A stretch of DNA of 64,000 bases, taken from Clostridia bacterium (lineage in GTDB: Bacteria > Bacillota > Clostridia > Oscillospirales > RGIG577). Below, piece after piece: positions 15,762 through 61,261 of this stretch (the first letter of the stretch is position 1; each line of letters starts with the position of its first letter). The translations under genes and the position numbers were made by a program. Under the pieces are notes generated by a model that saw only the letters and a program-made list of their open reading frames with translations, searched no databases and had not been told where the DNA came from. The DNA is taken from positions 1-64,000 of the forward strand of contig JAFQZS010000036.1 of the NCBI GenBank assembly GCA_017405765.1, in the 5' to 3' direction.

Positions 15762-16835
15762 TTATTTATCGAAGAGGCCGAAAACGTTCCAGTCGTCGTC
15801 AATTCCCTTATCATTACTATTCTGAGGCTTCGGCACATCCTTAAACGCGCTGCCCTGATCCGACTGAGGTATGCTCTCCATATCCTCAAAGCCCGTTGCG
15901 ATAACGGTTACGCAGATCTCGTCCTCAAGCGTATCGTCAAGCGCAACGCCGAAGATAATGTTTGCGTCGGGATGAGCAGCCTTCTGTATCATAGTGGCCG
16001 CAAGCTCTATCTCCGAAAGCTCTACATCGGGCGAGCTGGTGAAGTTTATAAGAACGCGCTTTGCGCCGTTTATGCTCGTCTCGAGTAACGGACTTGCTAT
16101 TGCGTTCTGAGCTGCTTCCTCCGCCTTTTCCTTGCCTTTTGCGCGTCCCATGCCCATGTGAGCATAACCTGCGTCCTTCATTACGGAAGTCACGTCGGCA
16201 AAGTCAAGGTTAATCATAGCCTCCGTCTGGATAAGATCGGATATGCTCTGAAGCGCCTGAAGAAGCACGTCGTCGGCTATCTGGAAAGCGTTCATAAGGG
16301 ATATTTTCTGATCCGTAACGAGCTTCAGTCTTTCATTCGGGATAAGTATAAGCGCGTCTACGTTCTCCTTTAAAAGCTCTATGCCCTTTTCCGCCTGCTC
16401 CATCTTGCGTCTGCCCTCAAACTCAAAGGGCTTTGTTACTATGCCTACCGTGAGAATGCCTCTTTGCTTTGCAAGCGAAGCTACGACGGGAGCTGCTCCC
16501 GTGCCCGTTCCGCCGCCCATGCCGGCGGTGATGAACACCATGTCCACATTCTGCAAAACGGCTTCTATCTCCTCGCGGCTCTCCTCCGCCGCCTTCATTC
16601 CTCTTTCGGGAATGCCGCCTGCGCCCTTGCCGCCTGTGAGCTTTTCGCCGATCGATATTTTATATGTAGCCTGGGAGCGCTTGAGTGCCTGCTTGTCGGT
16701 ATTTACGGCAACATACTCAATGCCGCGCACATTCGCCTTTATCATTCTGTTCAAAGCATTGTTGCCGCCGCCTCCGACGCCTATGACCTTTATTTTTACT
16801 ACGTTCTCAACTTCATTCTGCAGTTCAAAAGGCAT
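15762..16835 (-). CDS. ftsZ: Cell division protein FtsZ, paralog 1 (promoter-distal copy)
   Basis: 357-residue tubulin-like GTPase that forms the Z ring. It has [13 protein letters not shown], the tubulin signature [11 protein letters not shown] and the T7-loop NLDFADV with its catalytic Asp, so it should be active. It is about three-quarters identical by eye to the copy just upstream (14 bp gap); both start PFELQNE. The main differences are in residues 45-90 and in the last 40 residues. Its tail ends [12 protein letters not shown], without the usual basic DIPxFLR peptide that binds FtsA, SepF and EzrA. A duplicated ftsZ in tandem is unusual for a Clostridium-type dcw cluster. The terminator at 15725 ends the pair. 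Confidence 0.95.
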
Positions 16836-16849
16836 TACTTACGCCTCCT

Positions 16850-17941
16850 TTATCTGAATAATTTTTCTATATCGCCGAAATAATTGTCGTCAACGCCGCC
16901 GTCCTTCGGCTTTGACGCCGTGTTAAGTCCAGCAAGGATGTTCTGTGCGGCGGGATCGTTTGCAAGCTGATCGCTTGCCGCGTTCTCATCAAATCCCGTT
17001 GCTATTACCGTTACGCACATCTCGTCTTCAAGAGACTCGTCGAATGCAACGCCGAAAATAATATTGGCGTCGGGATGCGCGGCCTTCTGTACCATTGAAG
17101 ATGCAAGCTCGATCTCGGCAAGCTCAATGTCGGGCGAGCTTGTAAAGTTTATGATAACGCTCTTTGCGCCGTTGATGCTCGTCTCGAGTAACGGGCTTGC
17201 TATTGCGTTCTTTGCGGCTTCCTCCGCCTTGTCCTTGCCCGTTGCGCGTCCCATGCCCATATGAGCGTAGCCCGCGTCTTTAAGTACGGTAGTAACATCG
17301 GCAAAGTCAAGGTTTATTATCGCCTCTGTCTGTATAAGGTCGGATATGCTCTGAAGCGCCTGACGAAGCACATCGTCGGCAATAACAAAAGCGTTTGCCA
17401 TCGTTATCTTGTGCTCTGTAACAAGCTTTAATCTTTCATTGGGGATAACTATAAGCGCGTCTACGTTTTCCTTTAAGCGCTCTATGCCCTCCTGAGCCTG
17501 CGTTATCCTCTTTCTGCCTTCAAAATTAAAAGGCTTCGTTACTATGCCTATCGTAAGTATGCCCATCTGCTGAGCTATGGAAGCGATGACAGGAGCCGCG
17601 CCCGTGCCGGTGCCTCCGCCCATACCTGCGGTGATGAACACCATGTCAGCGCCCGAAAGAAGCGCGCGTATTTCGTCCTTGCTTTCCTCAGCGGCCTTCT
17701 GCCCTCTTTCGGCAACGCCGCCCGCGCCGAGTCCTTTTGTAAGTTTTTCGCCTATCATCAGCTTTTTGGGCGCCTTAGACGTCTTTAAAAGCACCTGCTT
17801 GTCCGTATTTACGGCAATAAGATCGACTCCCTGAACATTAGCTTTAATCATTCTGTCAATGGCGTTGCCTCCGCCGCCGCCTACGCCTATGACCTTGATG
17901 TTAACAATATTATCCATTTCATTCTGCAGCTCAAAGGGCAT
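16850..17941 (-). CDS. ftsZ: Cell division protein FtsZ, paralog 2 (promoter-proximal copy)
   Basis: 363 residues with all FtsZ motifs: [27 protein letters not shown], and NLDFADV in the T7 loop. After a short linker (ANDPAAQNILAGLNTASK) it ends DDNYFGDIEKLFR. The final DIEKLFR is a partial match to the conserved C-terminal peptide DIPxFLR, better than in the other copy. It is first after the ftsZ promoter at 18065-18093, with a GGAAGGGGG ribosome binding site. If one copy is the standard division protein, this one is the more likely; the second may be a partner or a modulator. Both copies probably share one transcript. Confidence 0.96.
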   Translation of the reverse strand: MPFELQNEMDNIVNIKVIGVGGGGGNAIDRMIKANVQGVDLIAVNTDKQVLLKTSKAPKKLMIGEKLTKGLGAGGVAERGQKAAEESKDEIRALLSGADMVFITAGMGGGTGTGAAPVIASIAQQMGILTIGIVTKPFNFEGRKRITQAQEGIERLKENVDALIVIPNERLKLVTEHKITMANAFVIADDVLRQALQSISDLIQTEAIINLDFADVTTVLKDAGYAHMGMGRATGKDKAEEAAKNAIASPLLETSINGAKSVIINFTSSPDIELAEIELASSMVQKAAHPDANIIFGVAFDESLEDEMCVTVIATGFDENAASDQLANDPAAQNILAGLNTASKPKDGGVDDNYFGDIEKLFR

Positions 17942-58602: not shown

Positions 58603-58657
58603 GATCCGATTGAATACGACAAATATCAGTAATATAATAAAAGGCGAGGTGAGAACG

Positions 58658-58864
58658 ATGTTTTCAAAAGAAATAAGGCCGATGTGCCTTTACTGCTTCA
58701 ATTCGACTAAGATCTTCGACGACGGAAAGCAATGCCTTTGTCCGAAGGCCGGAGTAGTATCTGCGGATCATTCGTGCCGCAGATATAAATACGATCCCAC
58801 AAAAAGAATACCTCCCCGCCGCAAGGTCTTTTCGGGCGGAGATATCAAGATAAGCGAGATATGA
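58658..58864 (+). CDS. Small four-cysteine protein, unknown function
   Basis: 68 residues from ATG 58658, behind GAGGTGAG; the 16 upstream codons in frame are unlikely. RPMCLYCFNST has a CxxC pair, KQCLCPKAG a CxC pair and HSCRRYKYDPTKRIPP one more Cys, so a small metal-binding site is possible. It lies 55 bp after ylbJ on the same strand and is followed at once by a strong terminator, so the two are probably cotranscribed. I know similar short Cys proteins from Clostridia but no function for them. Confidence 0.75.
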   Translation: MFSKEIRPMCLYCFNSTKIFDDGKQCLCPKAGVVSADHSCRRYKYDPTKRIPPRRKVFSGGDIKISEI

Positions 58865-58895
58865 AAAAAGCGGCCGTATCCGGCCGCCTTTTTTA
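58865..58895 (+). terminator. Terminator after the ylbJ operon
   Basis: GCGGCCG / CGGCCGC stem with a TATC loop, then six T; it begins a few bases after the stop codon. Confidence 0.95.
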
Positions 58896-58942: not shown

Positions 58943-58961
58943 AAAAGACGCAAGCGTTTTC
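58943..58961 (+). repeat. 19-bp direct repeat, left copy, flanking the structured element
   Basis: AAAAGACGCAAGCGTTTTC, identical to 59859-59877 in the same orientation. Together they bracket the whole palindrome-rich region. They might be a target duplication, attachment sites, or a short host repeat. Confidence 0.85.
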
Positions 58962-59817
58962 AGAACCTAGGTTCTAAGACTCCTTTTTCTTGCTTCCCTT
59001 GCTTTGAAAGCAAGAACAAAATTTTAGAACCGAGGTTCTAATACTCCTGATCCCCCTGCCGGGGGGCGTACTTTTGTGACCTCAGACCACCCCAAAAAAT
59101 CCGCTCCGCGTATTTTTAGGGGACCCCGGCGTACCAAAAGTCCCGAGAGGCTGCCGCCTCTCGGACTCTTCGCTCCCTCGCTCCAACACCGCCTATCGGC
59201 GGCGCCAGCCGCTCGGCGTTACTCAAATATGACTTATGTCTCGCCATCTACTGGCGATAAGCGCAATTTGCTTTATAGCTTGGAGTCTTTTCGCCATGAG
59301 GGCGCATTCTATTAGCTTCCTTCCCCACTGGTGTTCCGCGGCCGAGCCGCTCCAAGTCCCCGGTGCCCGTTAGAAGAAGGCGATATTTAACAAGTTGCCT
59401 TTTAGAAAAAGCCTGCTTCTAACGGGAACCGGAGTGTTGGGCGCGTGCGACGCGCCCGTCAACTTTGAGGAGAAGATATCTTGAATCGGCCCTCACCTCG
59501 AGGAAGGCTGGAAGTATTAATTGAGATTACATCATTCTGTTCGAAGATTGTGGGGCATAAATTAGCTGTAAGTAGCGCAGTATGGGTCTGTGGGTTTCCC
59601 CTCGTGAGGGGGCGGGGGAGCAAAGTGCCCCGGAAATTTTGGTTCGCGCCGGGGCCCCCTAAAAATACGCGAAGCGGATCCCGGGGCCTCAAAAAATGTA
59701 TGCATTTTTTGGAGTGATTGATGGGGTGGTCTGAGTTTGCAAAAGAACCGCCCGCCGCGCAGGCGAATAAAGTCTTTAGAACCGAGGTTCTAAAAATTTA
59801 TGCTTGCTTTTAAGCAA
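58962..59817. mobile_element. Non-coding nested inverted-repeat element with structured core (candidate novel element)
   Basis: About 850 bp between convergent genes, with no credible protein gene. Palindromes AGAACC(T/G)AGGTTCT occur at 58962, 59026 and 59778. Outer arms of about 47 bp (58999-59045 and 59771-59817) are inverted copies, each with a TTGCTT..AAGCAA hairpin, an AT stretch and the palindrome. Inner arms begin CTCAGACCACCCC (59081-59093) and end GGGGTGGTCTGAG (59723-59735). They continue with CGCGTATTTTTAGGGG pairing across the core. Between them are many GC-rich hairpins, the best at 59366-59426. No transposase is inside, so it would be non-autonomous, or it may encode a large structured RNA. 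The function is unknown. Confidence 0.6.
59366..59426. ncRNA. Very stable stem-loop in the core of the element, possible structured RNA
   Basis: CCCGTTAGAAG (59366-59376) pairs perfectly with CTTCTAACGGG (59416-59426). AGGC/GCCT (59378-59381, 59411-59414) extends it inward and CCGG/CCGG (59360-59363, 59429-59432) outward. Next to it GGGCGCGT / ACGCGCCC (59439-59457) forms an 8-bp stem with a three-base loop. Such conserved pairing suggests an RNA role, but transcription is not shown. Confidence 0.45.
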
Positions 59818-59858
59818 AAAAAAAGAAAACTTAAAAGGGATTCGTGGGACGGAGTTAA

Positions 59859-59877
59859 AAAAGACGCAAGCGTTTTC
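59859..59877 (+). repeat. 19-bp direct repeat, right copy
   Basis: Identical to 58943-58961, 916 bp away. It lies just downstream of the MATE gene on the minus strand, next to an AT-rich hairpin (GTGCTTTTT / AAAAAGCAC, 59878-59899) that may serve that gene as a terminator. Confidence 0.85.
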
Positions 59878-59905: not shown

Positions 59906-61261
59906 TTACGTCTTCGTAAGATTTTTTATCCACCGCTTCGAGCGGTATCTTATTATGTAAGGTATAAACTTCAGCGTATCCTCGGCGTTGACGGTAACGA
60001 ACACCACCCATACGGGGAGCTTCAGCACAAGCCCCAAAATCGCCGCGAGCGGCACGCCGAAGCCCCATATGCCTATAAGGTCAACGAGCAGGCAGAAGCG
60101 AGAGTCGCCTCCCGAACGCAGCACCCCGATGCACGAAACGTACGAAAGAGCTCTCACCGTAAAGAAGCCCGCAAATATATTCATGAGCATAAGCGCCGTG
60201 TCCACGCTTTGCGGCAGCAAATTGAAAAGCTTTAAAACATGCGGATTTATCAAAAAGAGGATCCCGCTTATTATAAGCGCTACCACCGTAGTGTACTGCA
60301 TTATGCGCCTGCCGTAAGCGTAGGCGGTATCCGACTCGCCTTCTCCTATCTTTTTGCCTATCATTATAGAAGCGGAGCTTCCGAGACCGAACACGGCTAT
60401 CCACGCCATTCGCTCCACGGTGCCGCTTATATTCACGGCCGCCGCCACGTTAGTGCCTATATGACCGTACACCACCGTGTACATCGACGTACCGATCGAC
60501 CAAAGACACTCGTTCAAGAATACGGGCAGCGCCGTTTTGACCACCTTTTTCACAAACGCGCCGTCGAAAGAAAACATCTCCCGCGGTGTGGACGCGGCAG
60601 CGAATTTCTTTTTATAAACTATGCTCACTATTATAACGGCCTCAACGAGCCTCGATATTAGCGTGGCTATGGCCGCGCCCCGAACTCCCATCGGTTCAAT
60701 ACCGAAATGCCCGAATATCAACACCCAGTTAAGGAACGTATTAAGACTGAGCGCAAAAAAGCTGGCCGCAGTCGGTATCACCACGTTTTCAATGCTTCTA
60801 AGCACAGCCGTATAAGACAGCGACACCGCCGTTGCGATATAGCTTATCCCCACTATGCGAAGATAATCGGCGCCGAGCGCTATCGGCTCTGGATCCGTCG
60901 TAAATATATGCATAAGGTCTTCGGGGAATATTAAGGCCGCCGCCGCAAACAGCGACGAAAGCACAAGACCCGTCATAAGACCTATCCCCTGAACGTGCTT
61001 GATGCGCTTTATATCCTTTGCTCCCCAGAACTGAGCCATGAATACCTGCGTACCGCTCGCTATTCCGAAAAGGGCTATCATTATGAGAAAATATATGATA
61101 TTGCAAAAGCCGACTGCCGCAATGGACGCCTCGCCCATCGAACCTATCATGACGGTATCCACGAGATTCAGCGAAGAATTGATAAGATACTGTATCATTA
61201 TCGGTATCGCAAGCGTTATCAGCGTTTTGTTGAACGGGTCGCCGGCCATTCGTTTAAACAT
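59906..61261 (-). CDS. MATE-family multidrug efflux transporter
   Basis: 451 residues with twelve membrane segments in two similar halves. DPFNKTLITLAIPIMIQYLINS at the start and LINPHVLKLFNLLP in the second half fit the NorM/DinF branch of MATE. ALYIVGISYIATAVSLSYTAVLRSI-like repeats mark the half junctions. It would export cationic compounds in exchange for Na+ or H+; the substrate is unknown. ATG 61259-61261 follows GGAGG. It seems to be a single gene, 55 bp after the stop of the gene at 61317. Confidence 0.92.
   Translation of the reverse strand: MFKRMAGDPFNKTLITLAIPIMIQYLINSSLNLVDTVMIGSMGEASIAAVGFCNIIYFLIMIALFGIASGTQVFMAQFWGAKDIKRIKHVQGIGLMTGLVLSSLFAAAALIFPEDLMHIFTTDPEPIALGADYLRIVGISYIATAVSLSYTAVLRSIENVVIPTAASFFALSLNTFLNWVLIFGHFGIEPMGVRGAAIATLISRLVEAVIIVSIVYKKKFAAASTPREMFSFDGAFVKKVVKTALPVFLNECLWSIGTSMYTVVYGHIGTNVAAAVNISGTVERMAWIAVFGLGSSASIMIGKKIGEGESDTAYAYGRRIMQYTTVVALIISGILFLINPHVLKLFNLLPQSVDTALMLMNIFAGFFTVRALSYVSCIGVLRSGGDSRFCLLVDLIGIWGFGVPLAAILGLVLKLPVWVVFVTVNAEDTLKFIPYIIRYRSKRWIKNLTKT

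Follow-up and report, generated by a model that had tools for sequence, protein, structure and literature searches.

A dispersed, two-lobed palindromic repeat of about 900 bp with nested mini-elements in a ruminant-gut genus of Clostridia

Within the stretch of DNA analyzed here (64,000 nt from a Clostridia bacterium contig, in the following called the window), we delineated a highly palindromic, non-coding element of about 900 bp at 58943-59877, located between two convergent genes. It is one copy of a dispersed family that is confined, within the scope of our searches, to one ruminant-gut genus. The element follows the plan arm, lobe B/lobe A head-to-head, arm, and thus forms a near-complete inverted repeat of ~900 bp. 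It has taken up smaller palindromic modules, frequently in the loops of hairpins, and some of these modules carry others in turn. The element is probably a non-autonomous, protein-free mobile DNA of the MITE/BIME-like kind, and it resembles a passive DNA parasite more than a gene or a known RNA. Literature searches returned no description of this repeat family, and its two-lobe plan, its size and its Russian-doll nesting are new here.

The neighboring genes are a small open reading frame on the plus strand (58610-58864) with its own terminator at 58870-58887, and a MATE transporter gene on the minus strand (59906-61261; PF01554), in the convergent arrangement described by the first-pass annotation of this DNA. 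The element is bounded by an exact 19-bp direct repeat at 58943-58961 (AAAAGACGCAAGCGTTTTC) and 59859-59877, a putative target-site duplication. At fewer than three mismatches, only these two end copies were found across the 2.17-Mb assembly of the same genome, and none of 100 shuffled windows held two matches to the 19-mer, even at three mismatches. The flanking repeats reported from the letters alone are therefore exact and restricted to both ends, and the inverted arms reported with them are likewise present (I1, 38 nt, 84%; I4, 37 nt, 78%; I2, 33 nt, 94%). No open reading frame within the element matched Pfam or PHROGs, in agreement with the earlier judgment that it holds no credible protein gene. 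Searches of Rfam 15 at gathering and relaxed thresholds gave nothing above chance, just as the annotation had been unable to match any of the known large RNAs, and searches of phages, plasmids and viral contigs gave no match. The whole element folds more stably than shuffled sequence, both as DNA (-229.5 kcal/mol compared to a shuffled mean of -141, z -13) and as minus-strand RNA (-430 compared to -299, z -17), an excess that merely restates the long imperfect palindrome.

Both arms are chains of hairpins, assigned from repeat and arm-profile matches and with stems that covary among copies. The left arm (58960-59079) contains an outer hairpin at 58960-58977, hairpins at 58998-59014 and 59024-59041 and a GC hairpin at 59051-59066. 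The right arm (59740-59858) contains hairpins at 59748-59766, 59776-59793 and 59804-59817 and a degenerate outer one at 59840-59858. Between them lie lobe A (59131-59351, minus strand; ~30 aligned copies from three species), which ends in a hairpin with a 9-bp stem and a T-rich tract, a long central hairpin (59352-59440, inverted repeat I3), which is common to the 5' ends of both lobes and crossed by both lobe profiles, and lobe B (59441-59645, plus strand), a diverged homolog of lobe A in opposite orientation. A 43-bp palindromic mini-element, here called M, sits in the loop of an arm hairpin at 59087-59129 (plus strand). A second M on the minus strand (59649-59729) is interrupted by another one in the same orientation (59680-59719).

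The relationship between the lobes follows from a profile built on lobe A, the core as read on the minus strand from 59440 to 59131. This profile also matched the plus strand from 59352 to ~59646 with an E-value of 2e-53; searches starting from lobe B recover lobe A. The core therefore consists of two homologous head-to-head lobes of ~300 nt each, one per strand, that share the central hairpin. The core of GC-rich hairpins proposed earlier does not stand as such but resolves into these two inverted lobes with their common center. The inner inverted arms of that proposal do exist, but I2 and I4 mostly belong to separate, later-inserted 43-bp modules. In the following, G000 denotes the window's own genome, and G001 and G002 denote two genomes of the same genus. 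In G001, the second lobe belongs to another type that is distantly related. Within lobe A, several stretches of sequence have stayed unchanged in all three species, and indel lengths in the lobes are not multiples of three.

The arm stems stay perfect via compensatory changes. Arm hairpin b, for example, occurs with the stem halves TTAGAACC/GGTTCTAA, TTTAGAAC/GTTCTAAA, CTTAAAAC/GTTTTAAG and TTAAAAGC/GCTTTTAA, in addition to other forms. Over 41 copies, 319 of 328 stem cells are Watson-Crick paired in a count that picks the best stem (shuffled partners average 224, maximum 258), and a looser count with mismatches allowed gives 332 of 344. Several positions show two to three pair types, and G:U intermediates occur in 2 of the 344 cells. 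Terminal inverted repeats are formed by I1 and I4 in the window element, and reproducible ones are present in the G001 copies.

The nesting of M can be read from copies in the uninterrupted state. The copy on contig C17 has an intact arm hairpin, GGTACTTTTGtttgCAAAAGTACGCC, at the place where the window copy carries the 43-bp palindrome CCACCCCAAAAAATCC...GGGGACCCCGG, and it is uninterrupted at the second M as well (GGTACTTTTCCCGTGAAAAGTACC). The insertion of M into M recurs in copies of G000 and G001. Using a strict pattern on selected loci of the three genomes, we collected 28 M modules. Their sites are arms, lobe-B loops and unique DNA between genes, and also the loop of a different hairpin repeat; five of the 28 lie within another M. 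Positions in hairpin loops were seen repeatedly, as individual cases; a few target bases are replaced, and there is no clear duplication. The junction between the left arm and M is common to copies on the contigs C36, C28, C16, C17 and C29, and because it recurs on different contigs, the composite itself has spread.

Further hairpin repeats accompany the family. In G001, two of them flank nearly every element copy (L060 1880-2100, L062, L066, L071), namely CCTTCCCC..GGGGAAGGTGGC...GACGGATGAGG and GGCTCCC..GGGAGCTGTC...GACTGAGGGATTGTC, both carrying the 43-bp module in a hairpin loop. A second dispersed repeat of G000, GTCATTGTCGAGGAGCGAAGCGACGAAGAATCTTATTGC...TCAGGATGACAA (L034 3500-3640; L035 200-400; L033 4530-4560), is fused to the center of several lobe-A copies at a nearly identical position.

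The search for copies suggested by the first-pass annotation was successful in G000 and in both other genomes of the genus. G000 contains 94 matching pieces; about ten of these are long copies of 400-760 bp with 80-91% identity, and dozens consist of arm sequence alone. G001 and G002 contain tens of element copies each. All of these are minimum numbers, since the assemblies break at the repeats; in G000, at least a dozen contig ends lie inside them. Besides G001 and G002, the 59 sampled relatives yielded only one 32-bp match (E-value 9e-4). When 394 genomes of the order were searched with a covariance model of the 3' part of lobe A (R1), scores of 81-118 bits were confined to G000, G001 and G002; the single match elsewhere, at 26 bits, is at chance level. 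Of 84,980 species genomes scanned with a pattern, only two matched, both of them MAGs named "Clostridia bacterium", from cattle and sheep duodenum. In a phylogenetic tree of lobe A, the copies cluster by species without exception (support 0.996 for G000 and 0.999 for G002), and their mean identity is 86% within G000 and within G001, 82% within G002 and 60-64% between species. This clustering implies amplification, or homogenization, after the species split. Neighboring genes vary by copy, none being constant across copies, and no tRNA genes were found beside the copies. The 25 scorable sites comprise 9 convergent, 13 tandem and 3 divergent gene arrangements. Since the copies sit in gene ends and spacers, the genes are undisturbed.

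In G002, the orthologous spacer between the small gene and the MATE gene measures ~230 bp and lacks the element, compared to ~1,040 bp in the window; the same region of G001 has another repeat arrangement. The proposed check for empty sites succeeded in part: it yielded a locus that lacks the element, although this is not an exact empty site. Most of the other copies are flanked by further repeats and showed no clean target duplication; at the G001 copies, such duplications are unresolvable for this reason. Two copies have hairpins on both sides: at L013 (1376/1990) these are identical 27-bp terminator hairpins, and at L039 (2309/2550) two 15-bp terminator stem arms with different loops. They look like paired terminators of neighboring genes or duplicated target hairpins. 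The orthologous spacer of G001 also contains, by reading, a gene for an IS200-like (Y1) transposase (L124 860-1320, minus strand).

Searching G000 for four transposase and reverse transcriptase families, we did not find an autonomous transposon with the same ends. PF01797 (Y1/RAYT) gave no match, while controls did match, PF00078 (reverse transcriptase) and PF01609 (DDE_Tnp_1) were absent, and PF00665 (rve) was represented by one gene only, an integrase-type transposase at G000:C6:46330-46641 (L145) with no element arms nearby. As these are only four families in a 54-contig assembly, the absence of an enzyme is provisional, and the mobilizing enzyme may have been missed or lost.

The non-autonomous mobile element that the first-pass annotation had considered gains support from the dispersed copies, the nested insertions with their uninterrupted states, the G002 locus without the element, the unique 19-mer and the species-specific amplification. 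In the mechanism we envisage, an enzyme acting in trans would recognize the hairpin-rich arms and mobilize the DNA, which would insert into intergenic palindromes or terminators, with a 19-bp duplication at least at the window copy. The stems might stay perfect because hairpins must be recognized, because template switching corrects quasipalindromes, or both. A more specific proposal is that the repeats form a self-nesting system: palindromic mini-elements of several kinds would favor hairpins of other palindromes or of terminators as insertion sites, often within the loop, and would duplicate or replace part of the target hairpin. Such hairpin-targeted mobility would act on cruciform or single-stranded DNA and would depend on an as yet unrecognized enzyme, possibly guided by the RNA of the two lobes; we regard it as a tentative and rather unlikely scheme.

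The same lobes could instead encode structured non-coding RNAs, one per lobe and directed outward from the center, with a role in the cell or in mobility and with the arms as closing stem and terminator. The two 3' hairpins of lobe A have 95% of their cells paired compared to 85% after shuffling, and 32 compared to 9 double-change cells; on the lobe's own strand, G:T outnumber A:C cells by 28:2, as RNA on that strand would leave. The invariant blocks and the terminator-like hairpin at the lobe end also agree with such an RNA. However, the G:T excess stems from three base pairs, and what lobe A carries is a weak G:U bias. The energy difference between the strands equals the dinucleotide-shuffle expectation (mean z_diff -0.4 for lobe A, 0.1 for lobe B and +0.7 for lobe B of G001), and base composition accounts for the raw difference of -13 kcal/mol, considered as a strand preference. 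For the full lobe, RNAalifold found support for few pairs, and there is no promoter-like site. Neither lobe strand folds beyond composition; most of the evidence therefore favors DNA palindromes over an RNA gene. The arms of DNA quasipalindromes can gain compensatory changes by template switching, as described for E. coli (PMC7202029), and because DNA palindromes also acquire such changes, the covariation seen here is not proof of RNA. We consider the RNA reading improbable. The large structured RNA raised by the first-pass annotation is mostly unsupported; the 28:2 ratio in lobe A speaks in its favor, against the missing Rfam match, the lack of a strand-specific fold, the scarcity of G:U pairs in the arms and the absence of a shared neighbor. 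That annotation had also staked its proposal against a match to a known Rfam family, or a lack of both copies and compensatory changes; copies and compensatory changes were found, and an Rfam match was not. A hammerhead-like core noticed by eye in the lobe (ATGATGCC...GCGAAA) was discarded, its conserved positions misfitting and Rfam returning nothing.

A decayed insertion sequence, with lobes as remnants of a transposase gene and arms as terminal inverted repeats, would match the overall inverted-repeat plan, the flanking duplication and the multi-copy family. We judge it very improbable, because the lobe reading frames lack Pfam and PHROG matches and three species have retained the lobes as structured sequence, in which indels are out of step with codons; among the copies examined, there also appears to be no longer, coding one. 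Least of all do we expect host DNA that spread because it is useful, for instance as a bidirectional terminator, a protector of mRNA 3' ends or a site for nucleoid proteins. Such a role would suit the avoidance of coding regions, the few divergent spacers (3 of 25) and the enrichment of terminator-like hairpins (6 compared to 1.9 expected), but the position bias comes from a small sample and is not significant, the orthologous spacer of G002 does without the element, the flanking small gene already has a terminator, and the family is confined to one genus.

As a mobile DNA, the element resembles MITEs in being non-coding and multi-copy, with inverted-repeat ends and a flanking duplication at the window copy. 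It differs from typical ones in its greater length, in arms that are hairpin chains instead of simple terminal repeats, and in that a parental transposon was not found. A target duplication of 19 bp is unusually long for bacterial MITEs, whose size is usually below 600 bp, a convention and not a strict criterion. The element measures ~900 bp in the window (~790 bp without the nested M modules) and ~700 bp in the G001 copies, above this usual limit, and we therefore file it as MITE-like and not as a typical MITE. The REP/BIME sequences of enterobacteria, associated with RAYT transposases, are intergenic mosaics of palindromic units of alternating orientation, a feature that the element shares; however, REP units are only ~20-40 nt long, and G000 lacks a gene with a Y1/RAYT domain. 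Like the GOLLD, ROOL, OLE and HEARO RNAs, the element has a long closing stem and a multi-hairpin core, but unlike them it has no Rfam match even at relaxed thresholds and no strand-specific fold.

The closest analogs are the pneumococcal BOX, RUP and SPRITE repeats (Croucher et al. 2011, PMC3049150), which are likewise dispersed, intergenic and palindromic in a Bacillota genome. These repeats are structured, modular and lineage-restricted. BOX elements measure 67-637 bp, and both BOX and RUP show terminal inverted repeats as well as target duplications (PMC3049150). Whereas BOX repeats one internal module, the element described here has homologous lobes placed head-to-head, unrelated palindromes nested in loops and a length of ~900 bp. 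It has no known sequence relationship to the three families and is similar in its working, but not a member by sequence.

The family illustrates what size the non-coding palindromic repeats of a bacterial genome can reach through nesting. Its natural series of interrupted and uninterrupted hairpins offers a lead to an enzyme that inserts DNA into hairpin loops. It also advises caution about deducing an RNA gene from deep covariation in intergenic repeats of bacteria, given that DNA palindromes covary too.

Elsewhere in the window, long tandem-like direct repeats occur at 1047-1620 and 16072-17900, with periods of 442 and ~1103-1106, which are probably duplicated gene segments.
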